From an uncultured Chitinophaga sp. (GTDB taxonomy: Bacteria > Bacteroidota > Bacteroidia > Chitinophagales > Chitinophagaceae), in assembly GCF_902168175.1 (NCBI RefSeq), contig NZ_CABHOU010000032.1, positions 43,754 through 107,753 of the forward strand: DNA of 64,000 nt, in the 5' to 3' direction. The position numbers and the translations under genes are program-made. Of the stretch, positions 6,857 to 59,155 are shown one piece after another. Each line of letters starts with the position of its first letter. Position 1 is the first letter of the stretch. The notes below the pieces were generated by a model. That model was not told where the DNA came from and ran no database searches. It saw only the letters and a list, made by a program, of their open reading frames with translations.

Positions 6857-9800
6857 TTAGCTGCTCAGCAGTTCGTAATAAACGGTTTCCGACCGGTCAA
6901 AGGCCTCCGTTAGTGCGTCCAGGTATCCCACCGTTTGGGTTTTCGGTGATGCAATGGGAGAGAGGCGAGGCACTAATTTCTTAAAAATGCTGTAATTCCG
7001 GTTTCGCTTCTCTATGGCGGGGTTTTGGCAGATGACGATGAATTTGTTCAATGGGTACTTGTCCAGTAAGGTGTTTGTTTGTACAGACAGGCGCTCGGTC
7101 TCTTCTTTAGAGATACTGGGAAACAGGTAAGCAAAATTCAGTATCACGGTACCGGAGAGGGTGGACGTACTATTCCAGTAATCATCCGTTACTTCGTTTA
7201 ATGAATTGATAAACAGGAATTTGGTATCCCTGCTAAACAGGCCTGACTTCGAAAACGTTCGGGCTTTATTTAACATCGCATTGGAAATATCAACGCCTAT
7301 ATAGTCGAATGGCAGTTTTGCAAAGCTTTCCTGGAAAGCGAGTCCGGACGTGAGCGGGCCACAACCAATATCGATAAAGGTGACGCGCCGGCCGGTATGA
7401 CTGAATGCCGTGCTGAAATAATCATTAAAACTGGAAAAGACGGCCAGCGCACTACAGTAATGCCTGCGCATTTCGTAGTGGCAATACAGGTCCACCTTAT
7501 CCTCAGCACTAATTTCCAGTGTACCCTGGTCAAAATTGGCCCTGCCGTACGACAGCACGTTTAGCCTGATGTAGTCAGCATCGCGGTGCAATGTACCTCC
7601 GGCAACAGCTTCTTTAAACACCCGCACAAAATCTGCCGGCAGTTCGTAAACCTTATTCCCTGTTTCTATATCCATCCCCGCCGCTGGAACGTTAAAGCGC
7701 CCTGCCAGGAAATCATCCGGCTGTGCGGGTATGTACCCATACTTGGAACGGATAAACTCAATAAACCGGTAGTAGGTAAGGTTATTGGAAAGGATCGTAG
7801 GATTCCCGATTACGAAGAGTTGCTTCTTCGCCCGCGTAATGGCTACGTTCAGTTTCCTGTCAATAATCTGCCCCTCATCTTCAATATTATTGGCTAAAAA
7901 ATCCAGCTGGTGAAACTGGTTAATGCAAAAGGAATAGATGATGATATCCCGCTGTGAACCCTGGAAACGTTCCACAGTATCAATGGAAATAGCATCCAGC
8001 GCAGGAATGCCCAGCTCATGGATCACGCGGCGGATCAGCGCTATCTGACTCCTGTAAGGGGTAATGATCCCGACCGTTTTTTCTGCTGAAAAGCTTTGCT
8101 GGTAAAGGTCGTAGATCTGTTTTACCAGCGCGGTCACTATTTGCGCTTCGTAAGTATTGGTCTTGGCCGATTTATCCCCGCTATGTTTCTCCGAAGGTAT
8201 AAAGGCCAGTCTTTTACGGGTGATGAGCTGATGAAACGGATTGTTTATATCTGAATAACTGTATTCCAGTGCCGCCGTTTGATGAGGGGTAGGCACTACA
8301 TCGAGCTGACTGTTATAAAAGGAATAGTTCGGGAACAGCGCAATGTCAGGGTGCATGCGGCCCTGCTTGTGCAACATGCCCCAAACCGGCGAGTTTTTAT
8401 CTGACTTATGAAGATGGTAAAGCCGCTCGAAAATGGATTTGTTCCTGTTGATCAGGCCCGCCTGTTGTAACAGCGGATCGTTTACCCTTGACTGTTCTTC
8501 CCTTTGCAGCACCACCGCCGGCAACTGCTTCTGATCGCCTACCAGTATGAACTTCTCGATCGCATTTCCCCCGTTTACGTTTTTCGCAGATAGGATGCCG
8601 AGCAGCCCCGGCTCCAGTATCTGCGAAGCCTCGTCGATAATGGCTACCTGGAAATGCTTCAGTTTAAATAACTCGTTTTTGCCCGAGAGGGAGGCCACCG
8701 TTCCCACATAAATCCGGTATCGCTCAATAGCCGCCTTCACCTTTTCCCTCGTATCGCAATCCCTGATCAGCTTGTCGAGCAACCGTGTTTTGTGTTTGGG
8801 GTCGCAGGATAATTCACTGCCAATACGTACGTAAGGCGGTTGGCCCTGCACCGTATCCAGCGCTTCGCAAATTTCATCAACGGCGCGGTTAGTGTAGGAG
8901 AGTAGCAGTATGTTGCAACCCGGCTCGCTGTAAAACTCTTCCACCATCGACTTCAGCGCAATGGAAGTTTTGCCTGTTCCCGGTGGTCCCACCAGCAGGA
9001 ACAGGTCATTTGCCTGTTTGGCTTTTAAGATGATCTCATTTACTTCCGGTGAAATATAGTGGTTGTTCAACCGCCGGCTGGTGTCCTGAACGGGGAGCCG
9101 TTGGTGTAACAACAGGTCCTTCCTGTCCTGGTTCGCATGTAAAAATGCGTACAGGCCACGGTACATCGCATTGTACGATGAATCCAGGAAGTCATGCTCC
9201 ACGGCATATTTGCTGGCAACAGGCAGTACGTGCTGGTTGCGTTGTTTGTACCGTACGCGGATAGTAATTTCTGTTGGGGTGATGCACTGGACCGCCCCTT
9301 TGAATACCTGCTTGTTGGTCACGTTATCCTTCTCTGTATTTCGTTCGTACAAAATCACAATATCGCCCTGCCGGAAATTGGGTAGAAAGTTATGCTCATA
9401 ACCCGGTATACTAAGCGTAATAGCCGGCGAGTCGGTTTCCGTAAGATTATCTTTAATGGTTAAATCGGTGAGTATTTCGCCTGCCTCTATCTTATCTGCC
9501 AGGGCCGACAACCACAGCGAAGAAATGCCTTTGGAACTGGTATATTCGGTATCGCCCGCTTTGGAGATGTAGTGTTCTTTCGCTACGAAGGCATAAAAGC
9601 TGTGGAAATACGCCAGCTCAATGGCCTTACCCGTTTTGAAAGCAGCGCTGAACTGTTCGATCTGCGGAATGATGTAATTTTCGAGGAAGCTCTGTTTAAC
9701 ATGCCCGTTCGTAATCAGCGTTTCGGGCGTAAAGGTGCCGACAATACGGCGGGTCTGCGTTTCGGTGGCATCCCTGGCAATGCAGCTTTCATTTGCCACG

Positions 9801-11128
9801 ATCAGGTTACGGATGTTCATGATCTCTTTAATGGCGGCCATGAACGGGGCCGTTAAACGAAGGTTGGCAGTGGGATCGGTGTACCTCGAGTACAGGATGA
9901 AAGTGCTGAGGTCTTTGAACTGAACGCCCAGTACTTTCTGGATCATGATCTGGTAAATGAATGCCTGGCTCCGGTGGTTCAGCCCTATCAGTTCTATGTT
10001 AGTGTCAGGAAAAGGTGCTTTCCCCGATTTTAATTCAATCACAAACTTCTTACTGCCACTGGACTGGAGTTGCAGGTAATCGAGCCGCCCCTGTACGCCC
10101 AGGTGTTCGCAGATAAAGCTCGGCTCCAGTATAGCGTTCTCCCGGTCAATATGTTTTTCGGGGAAAGTATTGTTGACGATATTTTTAATGTTCTGGAACT
10201 GCACCTGCGTGTCCTGGAAAAAGGTATGATCAATACCCTCGCAGGTCGCAAATTCAAACGGGGCCGATTTAAATGCCTTCCTGATGGTGTTTGCGTATAC
10301 CACAGGCGACTGCTGCTTTTCGTTCACAAATTCGTCGAGAAACATATTGGCTATGTTTCCGAGCAACATGTGTTTGGTGTTTTTAGCAGGTTCAAACCTG
10401 CTTTGGATAAAGTTTAAAGGGTGTTTGCCATATTCTTTCATACACTCCGCCAGTGAACTGATGTCCAGCAGGTAATCGGGTTCCAGTATGATCAGGTCGG
10501 GGATGTAAATGCCCTCTTCGTCGATAATAACATCCACCAGGTTCAGCTGGCATCCTTTCCAGAGTTGCGCCACGGTGTCATTAAATTCCTCGTTGATGCC
10601 GGGTACATGATGTTTTATCCTGATGGGCTCCTCTGTGGGATGTTCTTCGTCGAAAGCATAAATGAAATGTTCATCGGCAGATGATACTTCCACCCGTATC
10701 CGCTCTGTTTTCTCACTTTTCCGGCTACGGGGCACCTGTGTTCTGCAGTCCTTGTACCGGCTTGCCGCTGCCAGCAGTTCTGCCGGTATATCAAGTTCAA
10801 AACATATCCTGCCAAAATCACATAAGGCGCGCAGGTCCGACGCATAGGGACAATCGCCCACAGGCCGTAATCCTCCCTGTAAAACCTGGTTGGCATTAAT
10901 ACGGAAAGCGTTGATCCAGTATTTTTGATACCCGTTCAGGTTATACTTATCGCAAATGTAATTGAGCCGGGAAAACAGGTTGGAGAACTGGATGCTTTCA
11001 TGCGCTGTCAGGTCCTTACAGGCCCGCTCAAGTAGTGACCGGAACTTGACGTATTTCTCTGCTAAGTGGTTTTGTTCCTGGTGGATTTCCAACAGATCTC
11101 CGAAGAACTCTACGCCGTTTACATTCAT
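6857..11128 (-). CDS. Giant fusion: PD-(D/E)XK nuclease, SF1 Upf1/Dna2-like helicase and methyltransferase-fold domain
   Basis: A 1423-residue protein with three recognisable modules. Residues about 1-300 are not recognised. Residues about 335-415 hold a RecB/Cas4-type nuclease core: Asp350 in GRLDYL, Glu365 and Lys367 in ELKSGK, and the QxxxY motif at Gln388-Tyr392. No iron-sulfur cysteine cluster is seen. Residues about 700-1110 form an SF1 helicase of the COG1112/Upf1 type: Walker A GPPGTGKT (714-721), DEAS Walker B (832-835), GDQKQLP (864-870), TPYRSQ (1023-1028), ERFQGSQRD (1053-1061) and the AITRAKKQ block (1096-1103). Residues about 1248-1420 look like a class I methyltransferase: motif I FIDIGCGP (1251-1258) and GVDIS (1278-1282), with no DNA-methylase (N/D)PP(Y/F) motif. 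It could process nucleic acid ends or defend against phage; the function is unknown. It is transcribed alone. Confidence 0.85.
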   Translation of the reverse strand: MNVNGVEFFGDLLEIHQEQNHLAEKYVKFRSLLERACKDLTAHESIQFSNLFSRLNYICDKYNLNGYQKYWINAFRINANQVLQGGLRPVGDCPYASDLRALCDFGRICFELDIPAELLAAASRYKDCRTQVPRSRKSEKTERIRVEVSSADEHFIYAFDEEHPTEEPIRIKHHVPGINEEFNDTVAQLWKGCQLNLVDVIIDEEGIYIPDLIILEPDYLLDISSLAECMKEYGKHPLNFIQSRFEPAKNTKHMLLGNIANMFLDEFVNEKQQSPVVYANTIRKAFKSAPFEFATCEGIDHTFFQDTQVQFQNIKNIVNNTFPEKHIDRENAILEPSFICEHLGVQGRLDYLQLQSSGSKKFVIELKSGKAPFPDTNIELIGLNHRSQAFIYQIMIQKVLGVQFKDLSTFILYSRYTDPTANLRLTAPFMAAIKEIMNIRNLIVANESCIARDATETQTRRIVGTFTPETLITNGHVKQSFLENYIIPQIEQFSAAFKTGKAIELAYFHSFYAFVAKEHYISKAGDTEYTSSKGISSLWLSALADKIEAGEILTDLTIKDNLTETDSPAITLSIPGYEHNFLPNFRQGDIVILYERNTEKDNVTNKQVFKGAVQCITPTEITIRVRYKQRNQHVLPVASKYAVEHDFLDSSYNAMYRGLYAFLHANQDRKDLLLHQRLPVQDTSRRLNNHYISPEVNEIILKAKQANDLFLLVGPPGTGKTSIALKSMVEEFYSEPGCNILLLSYTNRAVDEICEALDTVQGQPPYVRIGSELSCDPKHKTRLLDKLIRDCDTREKVKAAIERYRIYVGTVASLSGKNELFKLKHFQVAIIDEASQILEPGLLGILSAKNVNGGNAIEKFILVGDQKQLPAVVLQREEQSRVNDPLLQQAGLINRNKSIFERLYHLHKSDKNSPVWGMLHKQGRMHPDIALFPNYSFYNSQLDVVPTPHQTAALEYSYSDINNPFHQLITRKRLAFIPSEKHSGDKSAKTNTYEAQIVTALVKQIYDLYQQSFSAEKTVGIITPYRSQIALIRRVIHELGIPALDAISIDTVERFQGSQRDIIIYSFCINQFHQLDFLANNIEDEGQIIDRKLNVAITRAKKQLFVIGNPTILSNNLTYYRFIEFIRSKYGYIPAQPDDFLAGRFNVPAAGMDIETGNKVYELPADFVRVFKEAVAGGTLHRDADYIRLNVLSYGRANFDQGTLEISAEDKVDLYCHYEMRRHYCSALAVFSSFNDYFSTAFSHTGRRVTFIDIGCGPLTSGLAFQESFAKLPFDYIGVDISNAMLNKARTFSKSGLFSRDTKFLFINSLNEVTDDYWNSTSTLSGTVILNFAYLFPSISKEETERLSVQTNTLLDKYPLNKFIVICQNPAIEKRNRNYSIFKKLVPRLSPIASPKTQTVGYLDALTEAFDRSETVYYELLSS

Positions 11129-28087: not shown

Positions 28088-29341
28088 ATGGCAAAAAATG
28101 TCGCACAGAACAAACTTATATACGTGTACGCGGATTGGTTGGAGCTTAAAGGTGAAAGATTAATGGGGATATTAAAAATTGAATCTGGCCGTGGGCGGGA
28201 GACTTTCTCCTTTACATATGATTCTAACTGGCTGTTAAGCCCTCCTGCACTTTTGTTAGATCCAGATTTACATCTTTTCACTGGTCCTCAATACCTCAAT
28301 TACGAAAAGCTAAATTTCGGACTGTTCACCGACTCTTCTCCTGATCGATGGGGAAGGGTGTTAATGCAGAGGCGGGAAGCGCATTTGGCAAGAGGAGAAG
28401 AAAGACGGCCGAAAACATTGCTTGAAAGCGACTATCTCATGGGGGTACATGATCTGTACAGGATGGGTGCGCTCCGTTTTAAGTTGGATATTAATGGGCC
28501 TTTTCTGGATAATAGGGACGCGATGGCTGCGCCGCCCTTAACATCTCTGCGAACACTTGAAGAGGCTAGTTTGGCGCTCGAACGGGAAGACGCGACGGAA
28601 GATCCGGCTTTTACGCAATGGCTTAATTTATTGATGTCTCCAGGTTCTTCGCTTGGTGGTGCCCGGCCTAAAGCTAGTATTGTGGATACTGACGGACATT
28701 TATGGATAGCGAAATTTCCTAGCAGAAATGATACTCATGATGTGGGCGGTTGGGAGCAAGTAGTTAATATTTTGGGTACACGTGTAGGATTAGATATAGC
28801 GGTAAGCGAGGCGCGCAGGTATTCGCATCAACACCACACTTTCTTGTCAAAGCGCTTCGACCGAACATCGCAAGGTCGTTTTCACTTTGCATCCGCAATG
28901 ACACTTTTAGGTAAAACAGATGGTGCCACGGCTTCCTATTTGGACCTGGCGGAATTTATCGTACAATACGGAGCTACGCCAACAAGAGATATGGAGGAAC
29001 TGTGGCGGCGAATCGTATTTTATGTAAATGTATCTAATACAGACGATCACCTCCGGAACCATGGCTTTCTCCTTACTGATCGTGGCTGGAAACTTTCGCC
29101 GGCCTATGATATAAACCCTGTGCCAAATACTTACGGTTCAAGTTTAAATATCTCGGAACATAGTAACGATCATGATATCGATCTGGTACGGGAAGTAGCA
29201 GATCGGTTTCGGATAAAAGCAATTACGCGTGAACAAATTATTAGCCACACTGTAGAAGTGGTCAGCCATTGGGCTGATGTAGCAAGGGAAATCGGGATGC
29301 CCCGACGGGATATGGAATTGATGAGAAATTGCTTTAGTTGA
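28088..29341 (+). CDS. hipA: HipA-like serine/threonine kinase toxin
   Basis: A 417-residue HipA-family kinase. The N-terminal about 100 residues match the HipA N-terminal subdomain (LNFGLFTDSSPDRWGRVLMQRR). The P-loop-like motif is SSLGGARPKA and the catalytic loop NTDDHLRNHGF. The metal-binding block is LSPAYDINP. All key residues look intact, so it is probably active. Known HipA proteins phosphorylate an aminoacyl-tRNA synthetase (GltX in E. coli) and cause growth arrest; HipT/HipBST variants hit other synthetases. The target here is unknown. It is co-transcribed with hipB (2-bp gap). Confidence 0.9.
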   Translation: MAKNVAQNKLIYVYADWLELKGERLMGILKIESGRGRETFSFTYDSNWLLSPPALLLDPDLHLFTGPQYLNYEKLNFGLFTDSSPDRWGRVLMQRREAHLARGEERRPKTLLESDYLMGVHDLYRMGALRFKLDINGPFLDNRDAMAAPPLTSLRTLEEASLALEREDATEDPAFTQWLNLLMSPGSSLGGARPKASIVDTDGHLWIAKFPSRNDTHDVGGWEQVVNILGTRVGLDIAVSEARRYSHQHHTFLSKRFDRTSQGRFHFASAMTLLGKTDGATASYLDLAEFIVQYGATPTRDMEELWRRIVFYVNVSNTDDHLRNHGFLLTDRGWKLSPAYDINPVPNTYGSSLNISEHSNDHDIDLVREVADRFRIKAITREQIISHTVEVVSHWADVAREIGMPRRDMELMRNCFS

Positions 29342-49168: not shown

Positions 49169-49973
49169 TACATCCCGATATCAGCGTGAAAGTCTGGTTT
49201 TTTAATGTTTTTGTCGGGCTAAGCGAAAATGGAGGGAGGAGGTAGATTGGCGTAACCCAAATAAAGGTGAGTTATCGTATATACGGTAGCAAAGATAGAA
49301 ATTGTTAATCGTTTTATATACAATTATCGTGTTACGTCCGCTTTTTGACATGGTATTAGCGGCTATTTTTTGTTAACCGCCCGTTAATGCTTTCTCTGAA
49401 AAGATAACATTTTCTTAAAAAAAGATGGAAAATCGATGTTACAGTTTGAAATGTTTCCCGCTTTTACATTATCAGGGCGGACTGTAGGTATTGTAACAGT
49501 CGTCGTGAATGTTCGAAGGACAGTTTTATTATCATGTGAATACTGCCGGCTAATGGTTGCGCCGGGGTCACCTATACCAGGAAACGAGAATACCTTCTCC
49601 GGTTTAGTAAAAGAGACAAAGAATATTGTCTGGCTATTTAGAAATGGAATCAATATGCGTCAATTAAAAGAGAAGGGAGCTTTATCTTTATTAGTATTAC
49701 GTGCCGTGTGCCTGGATTTTTCCACGCTGCGGTCGGGGGCATTTGTCACCACTCCATTTCTTTTCCTATCACTGACGGAACATTATTCATTAACAGGTAA
49801 GCCGAAAACCAACTGTTATAAAACACCGGGCGTATAGTAACACGTCCGGCATCCGGCGTTCCGTAATATTACGGTAGCCGGCTCTAATTTGGCTTATGCA
49901 TATTTAAACCGTCAGTAATGCCACTGTAGTACGGGTGTGCTGATTATATTGTTCAACCAAAAAAAGCTGTTGC
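49169..49973. other. Long divergent intergenic region before susC
   Basis: About 805 bp between the sigma gene and susC. Open frames exist on both strands (49436-49837 plus, 133 residues; 49384-49653 minus, 89 residues) but neither has a start context or recognisable content, and they overlap each other. A palindromic hairpin at 49853 lies close to the likely susC promoter. The region may be the 5' leader and promoter of the operon, or hold a decayed gene. Confidence 0.5.
49853..49881. promoter_or_regulatory. Nested palindrome upstream of susC
   Basis: A perfect 14-bp palindrome, ccgtaatattacgg (49861-49874), is enclosed by a second arm pair, ccggc (49853-49857) with gccgg (49877-49881). It lies about 95 bp before the susC start codon, so it may be an operator or the base of a leader hairpin. 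Confidence 0.4.
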
Positions 49974-52900
49974 ATGTTCCGACATCTACTCAATCGGTTT
50001 TGCCTGCCGATTATTTGTTTCTTCCTTTTGCCTGTCAAGGCATTACAGGCCCAGGTGGCAGATGCAGGCCAACGGGTTATCAGAATAAATATTACCAACC
50101 AACCAATTTCCACAGCCCTTAAGACGTTGGAGCGCGGGGCGAAAGTCCGGTTCAACTATGCATCAGGCCTGGTCCGTTCCGGCGACCTCGTATCCATTAG
50201 CCGCGAGAATGCCAAACTCGACGACGTACTCGGGGAGTTGTTAGCGCCGCGGGAGATTAGTTGGAGGTATGAGGGGAGTAATGTGATTTTGAGGAGGAGG
50301 GTGAAGGAGGGGAATAGGGCGACTGAAGAGAAAGGAAATGCACAGGTGGTGGAAATATACGGAACTGTTACAGATACATCAGGCAAGCCGCTTGAGGGGG
50401 TATCCATTGGCGTGAAAGGATCCAATGCAGGAACAATGACGAATGGTGAGGGTAAATATAATTTGAAGATCAATAGTCGTAGTATAATTTTTATTACTTC
50501 TGTTGGCTTTCTTCCTAAGCAGTCAAAAGTGGAAGGTAGCGGGGAATTGAATTTCGCGTTGCAAATTGCGCCACAAGATATCCAAACGGTGGAAGTGGTA
50601 TCAACCGGATATGAACGAATTCCGCAGGAACGTATTACTGGCTCGTTTTCCTTCGTTAACAATAGAATGGTAAACAGGAGAGTAGGAGCAAGTGCTTTGA
50701 GCAGGTTGGAGGGTATTGTACCAGGTCTTCTTTTTAACAGAAACACTACTTCCGCCTCAAATGGGGAGGTAGACATCACAGTGCGTGGCCAAAGTACGCT
50801 TTTCGCTAATGCTCAGCCATTGATTGTCGTAGATAACTTTCCTTATGACGGGAATATTAATAATATTAATCCAAACGATATTGAATCGATAAGTATACTG
50901 AAAGATGCTGCGGCCGCGTCGATATGGGGTGCGAGGTCTGGAAATGGAGTGATCGTTATTACGACAAAAAAAGGACGACGGAATCAAAAACTACAGATGG
51001 AATTCAACGCCAATATGACATTGGGAGAAAAAACGGATATATTCTATAATCCTAATTTTATAGCGGCGAGTGACTTTATAAATATAGAACAGGAGTTATT
51101 TAGGAGAGGAGTTTACAACACTGATCTGGCATCCAATGAAGGCATTACTACCTCACCTGTAATTGAACTCATGGATAAAGTAAAACGAGGTAAATTAGAT
51201 TCAGTTACGGCATATGGCATCATTGATTCCTGGCGTGGTAACGATGTTAGAAATGACATTTCAAAGTATTATTATAGACAATCGTTCGCCCAGCAGTATG
51301 CGATAAATCTTCGGGGAGGCGGAAATAATAGCGATTTTTTCTTTTCGCTCGGGTACGACGATAAAAAGGACGGACGCGTTCGAAATAACGATGACCGATT
51401 TACATTAAACTCCGAATACAATTTCTACCCAATAAAAAAGCTTACACTCTCGGTTGCTGTTAACTACATCCAATCCGAGGCTGAACAAAACAATACATTA
51501 AGTCAGCTGCAGGTTATATCGCGCGGCACGTCTAAAGGTAGCATGTACCCTTATGCGCGTCTTACAGATGATAATGGCAAAAATGCCACTGTGTTAAGGA
51601 ATTTATCAGATGCTTACACCGATACTGTTGGCGGGGGGGGGCTGAATTGGAAGTATAATCCGCTAAATGAATTGGCAATCGCGGATAATTCGACCAAAGC
51701 AACGGACACAAGGGTGAAGTTTGGTGTCAGATATCAGATTGTTAATTCGTTAAGCGCGGAAGTTATCTATCAAAATCAGCGAGCTTCTACTGTTAACAGA
51801 ATTTATTATAGCGATTCCAGTTATTATGCAAGAAATCTCATCAACTCGTTTACACAATTCAAACCGGGTAATGTTTTGTCTTATCCCGTGCCCCGTGGAG
51901 GTATTCTTCAGCAATTTCTAGGTGATCTTTCTTCCAACCGCCTGCGTGCGCAACTCAGTTTTAACAGGAATTTCGAACATCAGCATGTAGTGACGGCAAT
52001 TCTTGGTAGTGAACTGAGTGATATTGTAAGTAGCGGCAATAACAATATTGCTTATGGCTATAATAAGAAAACTGGCGCCTCAACGCCAGCAGTCGATTAT
52101 CTGACAACATTCCCTATTATCCCATCTGGTTCTTCCCAGATTCCTAATCCGGTCGGTTTTAGTAAAACCACAGATCATTTTGTTTCTTATTATGGCAACG
52201 CGTCTTACAGTTATCTTGGACGATATTTATTATCCGTTAGCGGAAGGATAGATAAATCGAACTTGTTTGGGGTTGAAACCAATCAAAAAGGGGTGCCACT
52301 GTTTTCTTCAGGACTGGGATGGATTTTTAGTGAGGAGGCATTTTATGGACTGGACTGGCTACCGATGGGAAAGTTACGCGTGACATACGGATATAATGGT
52401 AACATTAATAAAACCGTAGCCGCACAAACAACACTGTTGCAGATGCCATTGCCATCTGGATTTTATGCCCAGCCTTATTCTATGATAAATGCATTAGGAA
52501 ACCCTGAGCTGAGGTGGGAGAAAGTGAAGGTATTCAATATTGGGCTGGACTTTGCCTCTAAGAATCAACGTTTGTCAGGAAGTGTAGAGGTATATAATAA
52601 AAAGGGGGTTGATCTTTTCGGACAATCGCCGCTGGCGCCTTCCACAGGAAATGCTTCTTTTTTCGGTAACACATCCAGCACTTCGACAAAAGGTGTAGAT
52701 GTGATGCTCAATAGCATTAATGTGAATACCGCTGCATTTAAATGGTCTAGTAGTGTTTTATTTAGCTACGTAAAGGATAAAGTTACTGACTATGATGTGG
52801 TACAAAAGACAAATAGCTATATTTTGCAAAGTACGGCCAGTTCGGTAGTACCATTGAAAGGGCGGCCGCTATTTGCAATCTACAGCTATCGCTGGGCTGG

Positions 52901-53504
52901 GCTAGACCCTGCTAATGGAGATCCAATGGGGTATTTGGGAAAGAGTACCAGCAAGGATTATGCTGCAATCTTTGCAAGAACAACAACAGATAGTATGATG
53001 TTTCATGGGGCGGCCAGGCCTGTTGTTTTTGGCTCATTGCGAAATGATCTTTCTTACAAGGGTTTTTCTCTTTCGTTTAATTTGATCTATAAATTCCGCT
53101 ACTATTTTAGAAGATCATCCATGACATATGAGAATATGCCTTGGGTGGCCCATAAAGACTTTTATAGCAGATGGCAGAAGCCCGGCGACGAGGTGGTCAC
53201 AAATGTTCCCTCCCTGCAGTATCCTCCATATAATACTAATCGCGAATTGTTTTATAAGCTTTCTTCAGCCCTGGTAGAAAAAGGGGATCATATACGTTTT
53301 CAAGACATAAATCTCAGTTATGACTTTTCTAGTCTAATAGGAACGCGTGTACTCAGCTCCTTACAGGTTTATGCTTACGTTAATAACGTAGGTATACTTT
53401 GGCGGGCAAATGCTGTTGGACTGGATCCGGACCTGGACATGAATTCAACAGGTGTTTATCCTGTACCTCGTTCTTATTCCCTTGGTGTGAGGGCTAACTT
53501 CTAA
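49974..53504 (+). CDS. SusC/RagA-family TonB-linked outer-membrane protein with STN domain
   Basis: A 1176-residue outer-membrane transporter. The signal peptide ends KALQAQ (about residue 26). An STN domain (about 35-110, INITNQPISTALKTLERGAKV) is followed by a carboxypeptidase-regulatory-like domain (IYGTVTDTSGKPLEGVSIGVKG) and the SusC plug (PLIVVDNFPYDG, ASIWGARSGNGVIVITTKKG). The barrel ends LGVRANF. The STN domain suggests signalling to FecR at 47428. The first about 300 bp, covering the signal peptide and STN, use GC-rich codons like the surrounding genome, while the rest of the gene and the next two genes are visibly more AT-rich. That points to recombination or transfer with the join near 50280. 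Confidence 0.92.
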   Translation: MFRHLLNRFCLPIICFFLLPVKALQAQVADAGQRVIRINITNQPISTALKTLERGAKVRFNYASGLVRSGDLVSISRENAKLDDVLGELLAPREISWRYEGSNVILRRRVKEGNRATEEKGNAQVVEIYGTVTDTSGKPLEGVSIGVKGSNAGTMTNGEGKYNLKINSRSIIFITSVGFLPKQSKVEGSGELNFALQIAPQDIQTVEVVSTGYERIPQERITGSFSFVNNRMVNRRVGASALSRLEGIVPGLLFNRNTTSASNGEVDITVRGQSTLFANAQPLIVVDNFPYDGNINNINPNDIESISILKDAAAASIWGARSGNGVIVITTKKGRRNQKLQMEFNANMTLGEKTDIFYNPNFIAASDFINIEQELFRRGVYNTDLASNEGITTSPVIELMDKVKRGKLDSVTAYGIIDSWRGNDVRNDISKYYYRQSFAQQYAINLRGGGNNSDFFFSLGYDDKKDGRVRNNDDRFTLNSEYNFYPIKKLTLSVAVNYIQSEAEQNNTLSQLQVISRGTSKGSMYPYARLTDDNGKNATVLRNLSDAYTDTVGGGGLNWKYNPLNELAIADNSTKATDTRVKFGVRYQIVNSLSAEVIYQNQRASTVNRIYYSDSSYYARNLINSFTQFKPGNVLSYPVPRGGILQQFLGDLSSNRLRAQLSFNRNFEHQHVVTAILGSELSDIVSSGNNNIAYGYNKKTGASTPAVDYLTTFPIIPSGSSQIPNPVGFSKTTDHFVSYYGNASYSYLGRYLLSVSGRIDKSNLFGVETNQKGVPLFSSGLGWIFSEEAFYGLDWLPMGKLRVTYGYNGNINKTVAAQTTLLQMPLPSGFYAQPYSMINALGNPELRWEKVKVFNIGLDFASKNQRLSGSVEVYNKKGVDLFGQSPLAPSTGNASFFGNTSSTSTKGVDVMLNSINVNTAAFKWSSSVLFSYVKDKVTDYDVVQKTNSYILQSTASSVVPLKGRPLFAIYSYRWAGLDPANGDPMGYLGKSTSKDYAAIFARTTTDSMMFHGAARPVVFGSLRNDLSYKGFSLSFNLIYKFRYYFRRSSMTYENMPWVAHKDFYSRWQKPGDEVVTNVPSLQYPPYNTNRELFYKLSSALVEKGDHIRFQDINLSYDFSSLIGTRVLSSLQVYAYVNNVGILWRANAVGLDPDLDMNSTGVYPVPRSYSLGVRANF

Positions 53505-53515
53505 ATAGATGTAAT

Positions 53516-54901
53516 ATGAAAAGGATATCAGTATTGTTTATTAGTTTGGGGCTAATTGCTTTCGGACTTGGTTGCGGGCGAGAAAAGGATTTTCTGGATA
53601 CGAAGCCGAATGAAGTCTTATTTACAATATCTAGCCTTAACGATTGCCGTACTTTATTGAATAATGAGTCGGTCTTTAATAACAATGATGTCGCGTTTAC
53701 GACTGTGTCGGCGGACGAATTTTATGTTACGGACGATGAATGGGCCAATTGTCCCAGTGCCGAAAGAAATTCATATGTCTGGGCAAAGGACTTGTTTTCT
53801 ATCCAGGATATTGTATTCGACTGGGGAGATGGTTACAGACGGATATATTATTCCAATGCAATTCTCGACGCATTACCTGGTTTTAAAGACGATCCACTGG
53901 GAGATGCCGAATTTGATAGGATAAAAGGCAGCGCACTTTTTTTCAGAGCTTATTCTTATTATTCCCTTGCACAGATTTTTACACTGCCATACGATGCAGC
54001 GACAGCCGTATCATTACCAGGACTTCCCCTTCGTCTGAATGCTAATTTTAACGAAAAGGTAGACAGGTCGACAATTATGCAGACGTATATTCAAATTATT
54101 GCCGATCTGGAGGCCGCTGAGTCCATGTTGCCGGCAACAAGTGACTTTCCCACATTGCCCAATAAAGTGGCCGCGAAGGCAATGCTTGCTCGTGTATACT
54201 TAACGATGGGCGATTTTGCAAACGCATGGAAGTATGCTGACGAAACCCTTATGGCTAAGAACTCAATTTTTGATTATAATAAACTAGTGATTCCGACGAC
54301 TAATTTTTTGACGGTTAATAGTCAGTATCCTTTATCAGAAGACATTTTTCACATTGTTCAATCGGGTACTAATATTTCTCGTACCAGGGCGGCGATCGTT
54401 GACTCTACACTTTATAAGCAGTATGACGTGAACGACCTGAGGAAAACTGCCTTTTTTCAGACAACAGGTGGGCAAATTAGGTTCAAGGGGTCTTATGAGT
54501 TCAAATTGATAAACTTTCGATTTTCAGGCCTCGCGACAGATGAAATACTGTTAATAAGAGCGGAGTGTAATGCTCGATTGGCGCGTGTCGGTGATGCAAT
54601 GACTGATTTAAACAAGTTGTTGATAAATAGATTTAAGACAGGTTTTTTCGTGCCATTAACGGCCGGCGACGAGGAGACAGCCTTAAAGCTCATTCTCAAT
54701 GAGCGAAAGAAGGAGCTCATTTTTAGAGGTACTCGATGGGCAGATCTACGTCGGTTGGGGAAAGATCCGCGTTTCGCTACTTCGATTTCTCGCACGGTTA
54801 AAGGGACTGTATATACGTTGCCTGTGGGAGACAAAAGATATGCGCTGTCAATTCCGCTTATGGAAGTTCAGTTGACGGGTGTTGCGCAGAATGATAGATG
54901 A
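53516..54901 (+). CDS. SusD/RagB-family lipoprotein
   Basis: A 461-residue surface lipoprotein. The signal peptide MKRISVLFISLGLIAFGLGC gives Cys20. The N-terminal SusD-like region contains RIKGSALFFRAYSYYSLAQIF and the TPR-like KVAAKAMLARVYLTMGDFANA. The C-terminal part has the family block LILNERKKELIFRGTRWADLRRLG. It should cap the SusC barrel encoded 11 bp upstream and bind the substrate. Codon use is as AT-rich as in the SusC barrel. The ligand is unknown; the thioredoxin gene downstream is a common partner in loci thought to import peptides or complex organic ligands. Confidence 0.9.
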   Translation: MKRISVLFISLGLIAFGLGCGREKDFLDTKPNEVLFTISSLNDCRTLLNNESVFNNNDVAFTTVSADEFYVTDDEWANCPSAERNSYVWAKDLFSIQDIVFDWGDGYRRIYYSNAILDALPGFKDDPLGDAEFDRIKGSALFFRAYSYYSLAQIFTLPYDAATAVSLPGLPLRLNANFNEKVDRSTIMQTYIQIIADLEAAESMLPATSDFPTLPNKVAAKAMLARVYLTMGDFANAWKYADETLMAKNSIFDYNKLVIPTTNFLTVNSQYPLSEDIFHIVQSGTNISRTRAAIVDSTLYKQYDVNDLRKTAFFQTTGGQIRFKGSYEFKLINFRFSGLATDEILLIRAECNARLARVGDAMTDLNKLLINRFKTGFFVPLTAGDEETALKLILNERKKELIFRGTRWADLRRLGKDPRFATSISRTVKGTVYTLPVGDKRYALSIPLMEVQLTGVAQNDR

Positions 54902-54975
54902 CGACCATTTATGACAAAAGGTTGTTGTATTGCGTTTTTAACACTGATATTTACTAATTGAAAATGTGTTGTTTT

Positions 54976-56382
54976 ATGAAAGAGGTGGCAAAGTACTGTT
55001 TGTTTTTTTTAATTGCGCTCGTGCTGGTGCCAGGAGTATCCTATTCGATAAGCACGGCGCTGATTATTGGGAAAGGAGATTCACTTAAAGACGGAGATAC
55101 TGTTTTGATTAATGTATTTTCTTATAGTTCCCGTCTTTCCAGCTCATTTGCTCAAACGCACAAGGTGTTAGTGGTAGATGGGCAGTTTCGATTGCCGGCT
55201 TCATTCCGTACCAATATTTGTCATTTTACAATTATGGTTCCGGGGCCAAGATTGTGCTTCGGCCTGCTGGAGAATGGGGATAGTCTTGTAGTTGATTTTT
55301 CGAATAACAAGCTTGTTTTTTCAGGTAGAGGTGAGGTTAAAAACAGTTTTAGAGCTAAATGTACAGAAGTGAGCAACCAGTTATGGAAAGGCGTAAAACT
55401 TTTGGATGGAACGAAATTTAAGCTTTACTTAGAATTGTCTGATTCTGTCTTTTATCGCAGTTTTAAGCTATTAGATCAAATTAGACCACAGCTGAGCCAA
55501 TTGGCCTATAAGGTAATGGCTGCAGATTTATTTGGCATAATTAACCAACCATATTATTCTTTTAAAAGAATAGCAATAGAAGACCGTCCTATCGCTTTAA
55601 ATGATTTAAAGCGTTATAAATCAGGGTTAAATATCGATTCTATGCACGACGCGACGATGGATGATAACTTTAGCTATTCGGGAGAATACATAGATGGGCT
55701 AATTAGCCGGTTTAACTTTGATTCTTGTACTTTGAAGGGTAGAAGTTTTGATTTCCCGCAATGTTACACATACTTTAAAGAGAAGTATTCAGGTCTTTTG
55801 AGAGAAGCCATTTTAGCTAATTTAATAGTGTCTAATGCGCGCACACGTAACGATATGAGCCGGTTTGTTACAGACGCTTTGACCTTTTTTGAAATTAATC
55901 CAGATTTCAGGACCATCATTGCAGATCTTGATGAAAAGAGAAGAAAAGGGCGTAACGCGTTTGAGTTTTCCCTGCAGGATGTAACAGGACGGGTGTGGAC
56001 AATGAATGACTTTAAAGGAAAAGTGGTATTGATAGACTATTGGTACACCGGTTGTCCTGCATGCCCAAGAATTAAACCGTATATCGAGCGATACATGCGC
56101 TTGTATAAGGGGAAAGAAATTGCGTTTATAAGCGTAAGCTGTGATAAAACGAAAGAAAAATGGTTGTCGGGCCTTTCGGAAGGTATATATACTAGTAGTG
56201 AGGCTACCAATCTATATTCAAACGGGGAAGGGGCAAAGCATGCTATTTTTTCTTATTACGGTATAGATGCATTTCCCTCTATTATATTGATCGATAGTAA
56301 GAGTAAGCTCTCCCGGCAATTTAAAATGCCGGATATCGATGGTGGTATGGATCTCGAAGCTGCTCTAAATGAACTTTTGTAG
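54976..56382 (+). CDS. Exported TlpA-like thioredoxin-fold protein
   Basis: A 468-residue exported protein. The signal peptide MKEVAKYCLFFLIALVLVPGVSYS is followed by a beta-rich N-terminal domain of about 300 residues (like the DUF4369-type domain of TlpA proteins, by pattern) and a C-terminal redoxin domain with active site YTGCPACP (CxxC). It should shuffle or reduce disulfides in the periplasm. Starts at TTG 54958 or ATG 54964 are also possible. It lies 74 bp after susD, in the same direction, and shares the AT-rich style of the operon. Confidence 0.82.
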   Translation: MKEVAKYCLFFLIALVLVPGVSYSISTALIIGKGDSLKDGDTVLINVFSYSSRLSSSFAQTHKVLVVDGQFRLPASFRTNICHFTIMVPGPRLCFGLLENGDSLVVDFSNNKLVFSGRGEVKNSFRAKCTEVSNQLWKGVKLLDGTKFKLYLELSDSVFYRSFKLLDQIRPQLSQLAYKVMAADLFGIINQPYYSFKRIAIEDRPIALNDLKRYKSGLNIDSMHDATMDDNFSYSGEYIDGLISRFNFDSCTLKGRSFDFPQCYTYFKEKYSGLLREAILANLIVSNARTRNDMSRFVTDALTFFEINPDFRTIIADLDEKRRKGRNAFEFSLQDVTGRVWTMNDFKGKVVLIDYWYTGCPACPRIKPYIERYMRLYKGKEIAFISVSCDKTKEKWLSGLSEGIYTSSEATNLYSNGEGAKHAIFSYYGIDAFPSIILIDSKSKLSRQFKMPDIDGGMDLEAALNELL

Positions 56383-56467
56383 CGTTAATTTCGTTCTGGG
56401 TTTTGATTGCTCTGTAGCTATATTATATCTTGAGTACTGCAAAGGATGATGATTGTCTTATTTATTG

Positions 56468-56752
56468 CTACTTAAATATCTTGTTAGGTCCCACTAGATT
56501 TGTGAATTGTATGGGGAATTGGTTGATCAATGCTTCTAGCTCTGCAACAGGGCGATCAGATTGTATCGAGCAGGCAAGTGCCACGGCATCCGGAAGGCAT
56601 TCAGTGTCTTCGTTTGGAGCCAAAGTAGTCCATTTGACATCGACACCTACTTTGATGCCATAGAATGTAGTGCTAGTAGTTTTAAATGCCTGAGCACTAC
56701 TAATACAAGTTGATAATATCATTACTAGTATTGGGTATTTTATCTGTTTCAT
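56468..56752 (-). CDS. Small exported protein, copy 1 of a three-member family (DUF6520-like)
   Basis: A 94-residue exported protein. The signal peptide MKQIKYPILVMILSTCISSAQA is followed by a mature part of about 72 residues with FYGIKVGVDVKWTT, then a conserved CLPDAVALACSIQSDRP block that places two Cys nine residues apart. It is clearly homologous to the protein at 56929, with which it shares most of the mature sequence. The size, signal peptide and context suggest the Bacteroidota DUF6520 group; this name is tentative. The frame runs back to 56800, but ATG 56752 fits the paralogue. It has its own promoter region, since a terminator lies upstream at 56893-56921. Confidence 0.68.
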   Translation of the reverse strand: MKQIKYPILVMILSTCISSAQAFKTTSTTFYGIKVGVDVKWTTLAPNEDTECLPDAVALACSIQSDRPVAELEALINQFPIQFTNLVGPNKIFK

Positions 56753-56892
56753 AGCTTCTTTTTGAGTTGTAAACGCAGCTTTTGACAATATCAGTCTCAA
56801 ATGAGGGGAATGACTGATGGGAAATTCGTCTACAGAGTGAACGTTTTTATTTCTTTGGTATCAATACCGCTTTAACCCATACATAAAATGAA

Positions 56893-56921
56893 AATAAAAA
56901 GGGGGCTGGTTATCAGCCCCC
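56893..56921 (-). terminator. Terminator of the small-protein operon (minus strand)
   Basis: A perfect 8-bp stem, gggggctg (56901-56908) with cagccccc (56914-56921), encloses a 5-nt loop. On the minus strand it is followed by a T-rich tail (complement of 56893-56900). It sits 7 bp after the stop codon of the gene at 56929 and separates it from the copy at 56468. Confidence 0.85.
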
Positions 56922-56928
56922 TTTTATC

Positions 56929-57216
56929 TTATTTATAGATCTTGTTCAGATCAACTGGGCTAGCATATTGAGAAGGGAACTGATTAGTCAGTGCTTCTAC
57001 TTCTGCAACCGGACGATCAGACTGGATAGAGCAAGCTAAAGCAACTGCGTCAGACAGACACTCGTCACCATTTGGAATTGGGTTTACAGTAGTCCATTTA
57101 GCATCAGTACCAACTTTTACACCGTAGAAAGTAGTAGCTGTAGTGTTGAATGCCAGGGCACCGCCGATGCCAGTGATCAATGCTGCTCCGAGCATGAAGA
57201 ATTTAATCTGTTTCAT
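56929..57216 (-). CDS. Small exported protein, copy 2 of the family (DUF6520-like)
   Basis: A 95-residue exported protein. The signal peptide MKQIKFFMLGAALITGIGGALA is followed by FYGVKVGTDAKWTT and CLSDAVALACSIQSDRP, with two conserved Cys nine residues apart, and ends NKIYK. It has a more GC-rich sequence than copy 1 and a strong terminator directly after it, consistent with high expression. The two Cys could form a disulfide, and a MauE-like protein is encoded in the same direction two genes upstream. Function unknown. Confidence 0.78.
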   Translation of the reverse strand: MKQIKFFMLGAALITGIGGALAFNTTATTFYGVKVGTDAKWTTVNPIPNGDECLSDAVALACSIQSDRPVAEVEALTNQFPSQYASPVDLNKIYK

Positions 57217-57311
57217 CTTTTTGGTTTTTTATAATTAATAATGGATTTATGAGGTCCTTTTTTGCAGAAAGGATAACTGTTATTTATAGCGCATAAATAT
57301 CTTTGATACTT

Positions 57312-57605
57312 TTACTTTTGGCATGCTTCAAAGTAGTAGCCAATTCCTTCTATCTTCGTGTAGGTGTCTGGAAACCTGTTTCTCAGTGAACGCACAATTG
57401 AATCCGGTTCATAGGTTTCTATGTATACTGCCAGTGTCCTTGGATCGTAAATACTGTGCCCACAGCTGTCATTGATCGTTCCAGCCCATATAAAATCATT
57501 GCCAATCCGCACTCCGAAGTATCCAGTTGGGCCTTTCCTGAAAGATAATGTGAGTATACATATCACTAGCAGGAACCATGATGCTGGCAGATGTATTTTC
57601 ATCAC
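57312..57605 (-). CDS. Small exported protein, divergent third member of the family
   Basis: A 97-residue exported protein. An N-terminal hydrophobic segment (ASWFLLVICILTLSF) is followed by YFGVRIGNDFIWAG, which aligns with FYGVKVGTDAKWTT of the other two copies, then SCGHSIYDP, then a C-terminal end with one more Cys (YYFEACQK). The first conserved Cys is kept but the second is replaced, so any disulfide would be different. It overlaps the MauE-like gene upstream by 4 bp (ATGA), showing co-transcription and translational coupling with it. Confidence 0.68.
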   Translation of the reverse strand: MMKIHLPASWFLLVICILTLSFRKGPTGYFGVRIGNDFIWAGTINDSCGHSIYDPRTLAVYIETYEPDSIVRSLRNRFPDTYTKIEGIGYYFEACQK

Positions 57606-58069
57606 GCGTATACATTAGATGTTCTTGTCTCTCTGTGCGCATTTTTTCTTTTGTGGAAGAAAAGCGCTACAACGCCGATGGCAACAAAAAACAGATTGAA
57701 TAGGAGATGTTGCGTCCAGTTCATTGAACTGAGAAATCCACCGCAACTGCATGGCACTACGCCGTTATAGTACCCTGATAATACAAAGGTTACATATCCG
57801 CTAAAGATCAACATCAGTCCTGTAGCAGCATATAGTCCAATACGCCGTGTTTTTTCAGAAATAAGTAGCGAGGATATGATGATTTCGACTGCCGGAACGG
57901 CCCAGGTCATAAATGGTGCGTATTTATTATCGAAGGGCTGATTGAGCATTTTAAGGAACGAGTTATGATAATCTGTTAATTTTGTTATCGCAGCATATAA
58001 GAACATCGCAATAAACAGACAGCAGATAATCTCAATAATGATGGCACGAGTTTTCATGTTCTTATTCAT
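57602..58069 (-). CDS. MauE/DoxX-family redox-associated membrane protein
   Basis: A 155-residue membrane protein with four hydrophobic segments and the marked loop VPCSCGG followed by a W..HLLFN block, typical of Bacteroidota MauE-like proteins. MauE was described in methylamine dehydrogenase maturation, linked to disulfide formation; here it heads an operon of small exported proteins with conserved Cys pairs, which would be natural clients. This link is an inference. An internal ATG at residue 5 is an alternative start. The AraC regulator gene begins upstream, in the same direction. Confidence 0.83.
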   Translation of the reverse strand: MNKNMKTRAIIIEIICCLFIAMFLYAAITKLTDYHNSFLKMLNQPFDNKYAPFMTWAVPAVEIIISSLLISEKTRRIGLYAATGLMLIFSGYVTFVLSGYYNGVVPCSCGGFLSSMNWTQHLLFNLFFVAIGVVALFFHKRKNAHRETRTSNVYA

Positions 58070-58192
58070 TTCGGTTTAAACAAACATCTTTCGTCTTAGG
58101 CTTCTTCGTTTATTATCGTCTCTCATAACAACACCTCAAAGATCCGCCTTATATTCCCCACTTTCTTGTCCTAGGTGACACAATTAATTGTC

Positions 58193-59155
58193 CTAAATGA
58201 CATTCTTAATCATCGATTTCGTAGGTGCTACGCCGAAATACTTTTTAAACTCTTTAGAGAATGCGCTTGCGCTTTGATACGCTAAGGAATCTGCAATCTG
58301 CGAAATGGAGTTGAGGCCTTCCTGTAACATTTGTTTTGCGGCTTTCATCCGCTCGTTGGTAAAATATTCCATGAGGGTGAAGCCGAAATGTTTATGGAAT
58401 CCTTGCCGCAGCTTAGAGCTGCTCATGGCATAGCGTAGCGACAAATCCTGCAAAGTGATTTTTTTGTCCATATTGTTTTTTAGGTACAACGCAATAGTTT
58501 CATATATATCCTCGTCTATACATTGTGTGTCCGATAAATTATCTACCAGCTTCAGCAGAAGATGTTTCGTCCTGTATTCCATATCGCATTTCTGTAGCTG
58601 CGTATTGACAGGCGTATTTTTAATTTCTTTGATGATCTGGTAAAGCCCGTCCCAAATAAGTCCTGAATAATGACTTACTTTCGCACAGCGATGGTTCTCA
58701 GCCGCACTGGCCCATTCTTCCAGCACATCGGCCAGTTCCTGGTGATGCCGGAGCAAGGATATGTTGTAGTTGAAGTGCTGAATTTCGTAAACACCTGGAC
58801 GTAGGAATGCGCGCAATCGTTGATCGCCGAACTGGAATACACTGTACTGGCCTTGTAGTTGCCAGATGGGTTCCTGCTCGTCGAAACATATTTTAAGTGA
58901 GCCCTGCAACATGCAGTTGATCGAACTGTATTCTTCTGATATCACCGGTTGCATCACCACCGGTTTTTTTGCGATAACTACATGGTTACTGATGGAGCAG
59001 TCGCGCAGGTGGCGTTCGTGGTAAATGATGTCAGCAACGGGGGTACTTATAAACAAGGGTTTGGCATAGCTACATCGATATTGTTCGTATTCTTCCGGAA
59101 GTTCATTGAAAACACTGATACAACCGGAGGACATACCTGCAATTTGAAATCTCAT
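58193..59155 (-). CDS. AraC-family transcriptional regulator
   Basis: A 320-residue regulator. The N-terminal about 200 residues form a sensing domain with no known ligand motif. The C-terminal domain has two helix-turn-helix units, ITLQDLSLRYAMSSSKLRQGF and ISQIADSLAYQSASAFSKEFKKYFG. It is encoded 123 bp upstream of the MauE-like gene in the same direction, so the small-protein operon is its probable target. Bacteroidota AraC proteins of this layout usually respond to small ligands; nothing here shows which. Confidence 0.85.
   Translation of the reverse strand: MRFQIAGMSSGCISVFNELPEEYEQYRCSYAKPLFISTPVADIIYHERHLRDCSISNHVVIAKKPVVMQPVISEEYSSINCMLQGSLKICFDEQEPIWQLQGQYSVFQFGDQRLRAFLRPGVYEIQHFNYNISLLRHHQELADVLEEWASAAENHRCAKVSHYSGLIWDGLYQIIKEIKNTPVNTQLQKCDMEYRTKHLLLKLVDNLSDTQCIDEDIYETIALYLKNNMDKKITLQDLSLRYAMSSSKLRQGFHKHFGFTLMEYFTNERMKAAKQMLQEGLNSISQIADSLAYQSASAFSKEFKKYFGVAPTKSMIKNVI

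Follow-up and report, generated by a model that had tools for sequence, protein, structure and literature searches.

In the window, the whole 64,000-nucleotide stretch of contig NZ_CABHOU010000032.1 from an uncultured Chitinophaga sp., we find a minus-strand gene (6857-11128) for a 1423-residue protein that joins a DNA2-like nuclease-helicase to a C-terminal methyltransferase domain, predicted to fold like METTL17/Rsm22. We favour, with a probability of roughly 0.4, the reading that it is a chromosomal enzyme that processes DNA flaps or ends and is not a dedicated weapon against phages. In keeping with such a role, motor and nuclease are strictly conserved, several relatives sit at fixed sites, and copies are single. 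An earlier sequence-only reading had described three modules in one uninterrupted frame, and this stands: the open reading frame (ORF) runs unbroken from ATG through stop, the body is recognised by Pfam and alignment, and the methyltransferase by structure prediction. The residues it picked out (Asp350, E365-L366-K367, Q388..Y392, Walker A from 714, methyltransferase motif I from 1251, and D1280 of motif II) are all in place. In the features listed here, row counts refer to a family alignment of 186 rows (183 distinct sequences), and tail means the methyltransferase region.

6857-11128, minus strand: whole gene, 1423 amino acids, DNA2-like nuclease-helicase with a C-terminal METTL17/Rsm22-like methyltransferase domain (ORF, Pfam, homologue searches).
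10739-11128, minus strand: N-terminal helical region, residues 1-130, six helices (AlphaFold 2 secondary structure; DUF4145 matched in Pfam at E = 0.083 only).
10478-10726, minus strand: beta domain, residues 135-217, tentatively similar to an oligonucleotide/oligosaccharide-binding (OB) fold.
9659-10477, minus strand: PD-(D/E)XK nuclease domain of RecB/Cas4 type, residues 218-490 (matches to AdnA, ACE1, Cas4, RecE, AddAB and MGME1; invariant residues).
10079-10081, minus strand: Asp350, nuclease catalytic-site residue (186 of 186 rows).
10028-10036, minus strand: E365-L366-K367, nuclease ExK motif (E and K in 186 of 186 rows).
9953-9967, minus strand: Q388..Y392, nuclease QxxxY motif (Q and Y in 186 of 186 rows).
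9059-9640, minus strand: helical stalk and beta-barrel region of the Upf1/Dna2 helicase class, residues 497-690 (matches to Ighmbp2, Upf1 and SETX; weak MOV-10 beta-barrel match in Pfam, E = 0.17).
7784-9031, minus strand: superfamily 1 (SF1) helicase core, residues 700-1115 (AAA_11 and AAA_12 in Pfam; DNA2 at 1.5e-21).
8966-8989, minus strand: Walker A (helicase motif I), GPPGTGKT, residues 714-721 (GPPGxGKT in 186 of 186 rows).
6860-7657, minus strand: class I methyltransferase domain, predicted METTL17/Rsm22-like, residues 1158-1423.
7343-7378, minus strand: methyltransferase motif I, residues 1251-1262 (FIDIGCGPLTSG; begins DIGCGP), by analogy binding S-adenosylmethionine (SAM); D.GCG in 109 of 112 tail-bearing rows.
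7283-7303, minus strand: methyltransferase motif II, residues 1276-1282 (YIGVDIS; D or E at 1280 in 110 of 112 tail-bearing rows).

With the full protein as query, 7,508 proteins among 7,997 scored candidates matched at E <= 1e-3 (the best 120 listed), and D350, E365, K367, Q388, Y392 and the Walker A lysine are identical in 186/186 rows; the architecture is therefore not a chance observation. The SF1 helicase matched strongly in Pfam (AAA_12, 2.5e-36; AAA_11, 1.2e-22), and the Dna2 profile (PF08696) fell slightly under its cut-off, at 1.7e-4. Dna2 was the top match spanning nuclease and barrel jointly, and the order of RecB-type nuclease motifs, then SF1 helicase, is that of DNA2 and Bad, the iron-staple helicase-nucleases. 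Unlike eukaryotic DNA2 (mouse Dna2; 5ean, 5eaw, 5eax), the Chitinophaga protein has a C-terminal methyltransferase and a patchy presence among genomes, and it lacks the four-cysteine iron-sulphur pattern. When this set was sought in the 186 rows, only Cys229 was conserved (179/186), fitting the upstream site; no column between residues 340 and 754 is more than half cysteine, and no conserved cysteine follows QxxxY within the nuclease. DNA2 and Bad are defined by four conserved cysteines that span the nuclease domain and hold an Fe-S cluster (PMC7430649). The same paper presents Bad as a bacterial DNA2-like helicase-nuclease of Geobacillus stearothermophilus and bacterial DNA2-like enzymes as rare and of unknown role. 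Bad resembles our protein in being such an enzyme, in its sporadic distribution and in its link to a methyltransferase; compared by description only, it differs in having its own Fe-S cluster and central domain, and its methyltransferase is a neighbouring gene for a separate Type III-like DNA enzyme rather than an in-frame METTL17-like domain (PMC7430649).

For the tail, the Pfam methyltransferase profiles gave weak matches under their cut-offs, and the fold was therefore tested by structure prediction. The predicted structure retains a class I methyltransferase fold, bearing out the sequence-only reading on the C-terminal region. METTL17 is a methyltransferase-like factor that helps to build mitochondrial ribosomes. 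The predicted likeness to METTL17/Rsm22 (8css_7, 8d8l_0, 8om2_c; PF09243) extends over the overall fold, including the helical part that precedes the methyltransferase core. When the tail profile was run against solved structures, METTL17 came up only at E = 1.5, with four other methyltransferases ranked ahead of it; the link rests on structure. The tail differs from this family in being joined to a nuclease-helicase and in lacking the conserved cysteine cluster, a zinc finger or 4Fe-4S site according to PMC8171064 and PMC11046306; a search for a four-cysteine set found only Cys1216 and Cys1256 conserved in the family alignment. Yeast Rsm22 has partly lost its SAM motif (PMC11046306), whereas the Chitinophaga tail keeps it, as do most tails of the family. 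From the predicted fold and the conserved SAM site we infer a step further, that RNA is suggested as the partner of the tail.

For polarity, substrate, methyl transfer and physiological role, we infer a scheme by analogy with DNA2 and Bad. A free 5' end of single-stranded DNA would thread past the nuclease, the SF1 motor would run 5' to 3', and cuts made in the strand ahead of it would leave only a short flap. Next to the motor, the tail would bind SAM together with a structured nucleic acid, in all likelihood RNA, which it would methylate or hold, for example at R-loops or RNA-primed flaps. A bolder form of this proposal, which we regard as doubtful, is that a bacterial DNA2 with its own METTL17/Rsm22-type RNA-binding methyltransferase couples the cutting of DNA flaps to RNA capture or methylation at one site. 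This would tie repair at replication forks or R-loops directly and physically to RNA modification of the ribosomal type, and the tail would be swapped or lost as the cells, or the phages that infect them, change. In the literature searched we found Bad and no description of a nuclease-helicase-METTL17-like fusion. What the tail contributes bears on why a DNA flap nuclease carries an RNA-type methyltransferase, and on whether METTL17-like domains play any part beyond ribosome assembly.

The family offers a natural experiment on this question, with sister proteins that have the methyltransferase, a decayed one, a different one, or none, in two cases at shared sites. Among 181 classified rows (best matches plus fetched loci, not a random sample), 106 carry the tail of the window's type, A (P0082 in part), 6 a B-type methyltransferase, and 69 no tail. 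A tree was built from a thinned set of 92 of these rows (a quick method, supported by the Shimodaira-Hasegawa-like approximate likelihood ratio test only). On it, the three states need at least 12 changes against a shuffled mean of 31.6, and the B tails (3 rows in the tree) form one fully supported clade within the A rows. Core and tail identities run together (52 A rows giving 1275 pairs; Mantel r 0.70, a value that none of 2000 permutations reached), so that a tail inherited with the body, followed by losses, fits better than repeated gain. Two proteins, L028 and L151, keep the tail but have lost motif I (FSFEAG, FSSLAG), with nuclease and helicase sites intact. The L151 tail is unflagged by the family hidden Markov model (HMM) at 1e-4, and we count it as decayed because, on its own and with filters off, it aligns over positions 17-287 of 289 (1.7e-9, one target), and hhalign gives 93%. 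As for the shared sites, L151 and the tail-less L152-L155 adjoin the same large gene in the genus of genome G405, and a Chitinophaga long form (L099) and short form (L101) have three flanking genes in common. A separate partner methyltransferase beside the short forms was considered and rejected, since the A and B tail HMMs (E <= 0.01) matched only long-form proteins in the loci examined.

The B-type methyltransferase (L006, P0096, P0097, P0099, P0103, P0114; C-terminal 270 residues) replaces the A tail in one clade, has a cysteine-rich stretch before motif I, and has 122 relatives at E <= 1e-3. Searched by sequence against solved structures, it gave no relative (best 0.073). Profile comparison of A and B tails gives a probability of 77% over 129 columns, which is enough for a shared fold, close kinship lying beyond this evidence. 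Separately, at L145:474-18901 of genome G267, a 1499-residue protein consists of a B-type methyltransferase preceding a DpdF-like DEAD helicase. Its gene comes directly after an AlkB-type gene (PADLOC CARF_2OG, 8.6e-57) and adjoins a ZacA match; BrxA, BrxB and BrxC lie downstream. Of 247 genomes, G267 alone carries such a protein.

The context of the family is chromosomal. In our surveys of family, phylum and genus genomes the best 2-7 candidates per genome were scored, the window's own genome being counted. The gene is the sole full-length copy in its 6.65 Mb genome, where the other matches (E <= 1e-3) are two, both inside one 638-residue frame (25-34% identity), and every positive genome of the family, phylum and genus surveys has a single match at 1e-60. 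A member is present in 56 of 79 Chitinophaga genomes (E <= 1e-60), in 10 of 395 genomes of the class survey at 1e-180, and in 6 of 199 genomes of the genus of G405 at 1e-150. Several groups hold fixed sites. Of the 56 Chitinophaga carriers, 48 have a distant short form (29-34% identical), whose 11 fetched loci show identical neighbours, by eye presumably dusB, proC and purF. In the genus of G405, all 5 of the loci fetched have the member next to one large gene, which by eye we take to be gcvP; the copy in G405 itself sits on a contig of 6.4 kb and has other neighbours. Six Bacteroidales loci (L009, L010, L011, L013, L015, L016) likewise have common neighbours.

The dusB-proC site holds no family member in 6 of the 8 Chitinophaga genomes with a window-type copy, and was not found in the other 2; it is also empty in four memberless genomes examined. 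The window-type copy (8 genomes) and the distant short form (48) never occur together among the 79 genomes at 1e-60 (hypergeometric 3.0e-4), on which we place no weight because shared descent can explain it. The distant short form is what most relatives in the genus carry at the dusB-proC site; G606, G640 and G641 (L128, L129, L130) have an ORF of 195-199 residues there.

Among the neighbours, AlkB-type and DUF1848 partners lean toward maintenance, on a basis of three loci: an AlkB-type dioxygenase gene comes directly after the long form in L004, 3 bp away, and in L025, where the two overlap by 1 bp (this second gene was identified by its similarity to that of L004, 6e-88); in L005 the next gene is a DUF1848 gene, again overlapping by 1 bp. 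Several observations weigh against chromosome maintenance. AlkB follows in only 2/11 flanked long-form loci, and in 8/11, the window included, other genes follow. The METTL17 link is weak by sequence, PF09243 being missed by 14/16 tails, the window's own included, and matched by 2/16 (best 6.1e-6); none of nine A-type tails scanned singly matched, and in a further search of 20 relatives a lone sub-cut-off match, in a frame with three stops, was set aside. Presence is patchy at E <= 1e-60 (7/195 genomes of the family, 50/395 of the phylum). The phylum carriers make a large single-gene set of DNA2-like enzymes in Bacteroidota. The core of the window's protein is 75% identical to a Flavobacteriaceae copy (L004) and 64-67% to other Chitinophaga long forms, which points to transfer of the gene between families. 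A settled housekeeping gene would not be expected to behave like the window-type copies, which are spread over five sites in eight Chitinophaga genomes: one site is common to G606, G640 and G641, a second to G623 and G580, and the copies of the window, G607 and G598 each have a site of their own. Bad's authors suggest a restriction role, since its neighbour is a DNA methyltransferase (PMC7430649). The best named profile of the tail is the PADLOC 'methyl transferase' C3a159 (2e-14; 3e-18 for P0039), matched over positions 28-210 of the 265 in the profile, which includes neither helicase nor nuclease. The alternative methyltransferase of one clade has relatives that end in a TBP-TOTE conflict-system domain (P0134, P0137, P0140) or are neighbours of BREX genes. 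Conflict biology would fit the patchy presence, the transfer, the spread over five sites, the exchange of tails and the tails' kinship with PADLOC and TOTE proteins. We take the C3a series to be type III CRISPR accessory genes.

The points that fit conflict biology, together with a helicase resembling MkoA of Mokosh (7.8e-56), make a stand-alone anti-phage effector a real possibility, though one we rank behind maintenance. In the manner proposed for defence proteins that unite nuclease and helicase in a single gene, its DNA2-like body would attack replication intermediates of phages, or free ends, and its tail would sense or modify infection-specific nucleic acid. The interpretation offered by the sequence-only reading is partly supported. 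Against an anti-phage effector stand the genus-fixed sites in three groups and the single match per genome. No relative was found among phage records (1e-20), nor among viral contigs in scans based on a few short patterns, and only 3 of 72,556 plasmid records match, all ending before the tail (tail-less by coverage) and one on a 1.77 Mb replicon. The scan for defence genes nearby covered 139 of the 156 ORFs that neighbour the gene at 39 loci, without five that are very long and without the four at each of L070, L104 and L111. In it, 23 PADLOC models matched at 1e-10, one ORF each, so at most 23/139 ORFs by raw count, and 14 of the 23 are DpdF models, all of which one helicase can explain. The Mokosh comparison, also made earlier, holds for the SF1 helicase core of MkoA/MkoC and fails elsewhere; the match is limited to positions 616-1081 of 1112, leaving nuclease and methyltransferase uncovered. 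In type I Mokosh a partner gene adjoins, and no Mokosh partner model was found among 4 window neighbours (E <= 0.1) or the 139 neighbour ORFs (E <= 1e-10). The PLuB system helicase-like protein (NCBIfam NF040671) matched the helicase region 543-1125 (4.5e-56) and scored 190 bits where the cut-off is 999; the literature searched yielded no paper on a 'PLuB system'. Type ISP and single-chain restriction-modification enzymes combine an SF2 motor with a DNA-methylase NPPY-type motif, whereas the motor here is SF1 and the motif IV region reads VILNFAYLF; the sequence-only reading had noted the SF1 motor and the missing NPPY. Similarity being confined to the helicase, full membership of Mokosh, PLuB or type ISP was rejected. 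No PADLOC model named Nhi was among the protein's matches; the Nhi sequence itself was not compared.

It is unlikely, in our view, that the enzyme is mainly RNA-directed, with an Upf1-class motor and a METTL17-like tail working on RNA in tRNA, rRNA or R-loop surveillance and the nuclease secondary. The motor does have Upf1 and a SETX-type helicase among its relatives, and the METTL17 family, which the tail is predicted to resemble, binds the mitoribosomal small subunit (PMC11046306); however, Dna2, the best match over nuclease and barrel, is a DNA enzyme, the invariant nuclease residues are the RecB-type DNA nuclease set, and the tail is often absent. Finally, we consider it very improbable that the tail methylates host DNA while the nuclease-helicase destroys unmodified DNA, although one chain holds nuclease, motor and methyltransferase and Bad adjoins a DNA methyltransferase (PMC7430649, as above): the motor is SF1, the roughly 40 residues between helicase and methyltransferase leave little room for a target-recognition domain, and we set this reading low because the methyltransferase has no NPPY motif and is often missing or decayed beside an intact nuclease, a loss that would be self-harming if it protected the host.

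Returning to the neighbourhood, the next gene in the window, 88 bp away on the same strand, encodes a CysJ-like flavoprotein reductase. G106 is the only other of the 79 genus genomes with this downstream gene, and shares that gene alone with the first 20 kb of the window. At the site shared by G606, G640 and G641, extra small genes lie between the common left flank and the nuclease-helicase gene in G641 (L098:4729-7583) and are absent in the other two; this site therefore varies. Elsewhere in the window, 28088-29341 encodes a protein with a HipA_C domain (1.7e-44); an ORF of 101 residues lies immediately upstream, and the two may form a toxin-antitoxin locus of the HipA kind. A segment of lower G+C (49436-59155; 0.39-0.46) carries TonB plug/SusC-like, SusD-like, thioredoxin-like, MauE-like and AraC-type genes.

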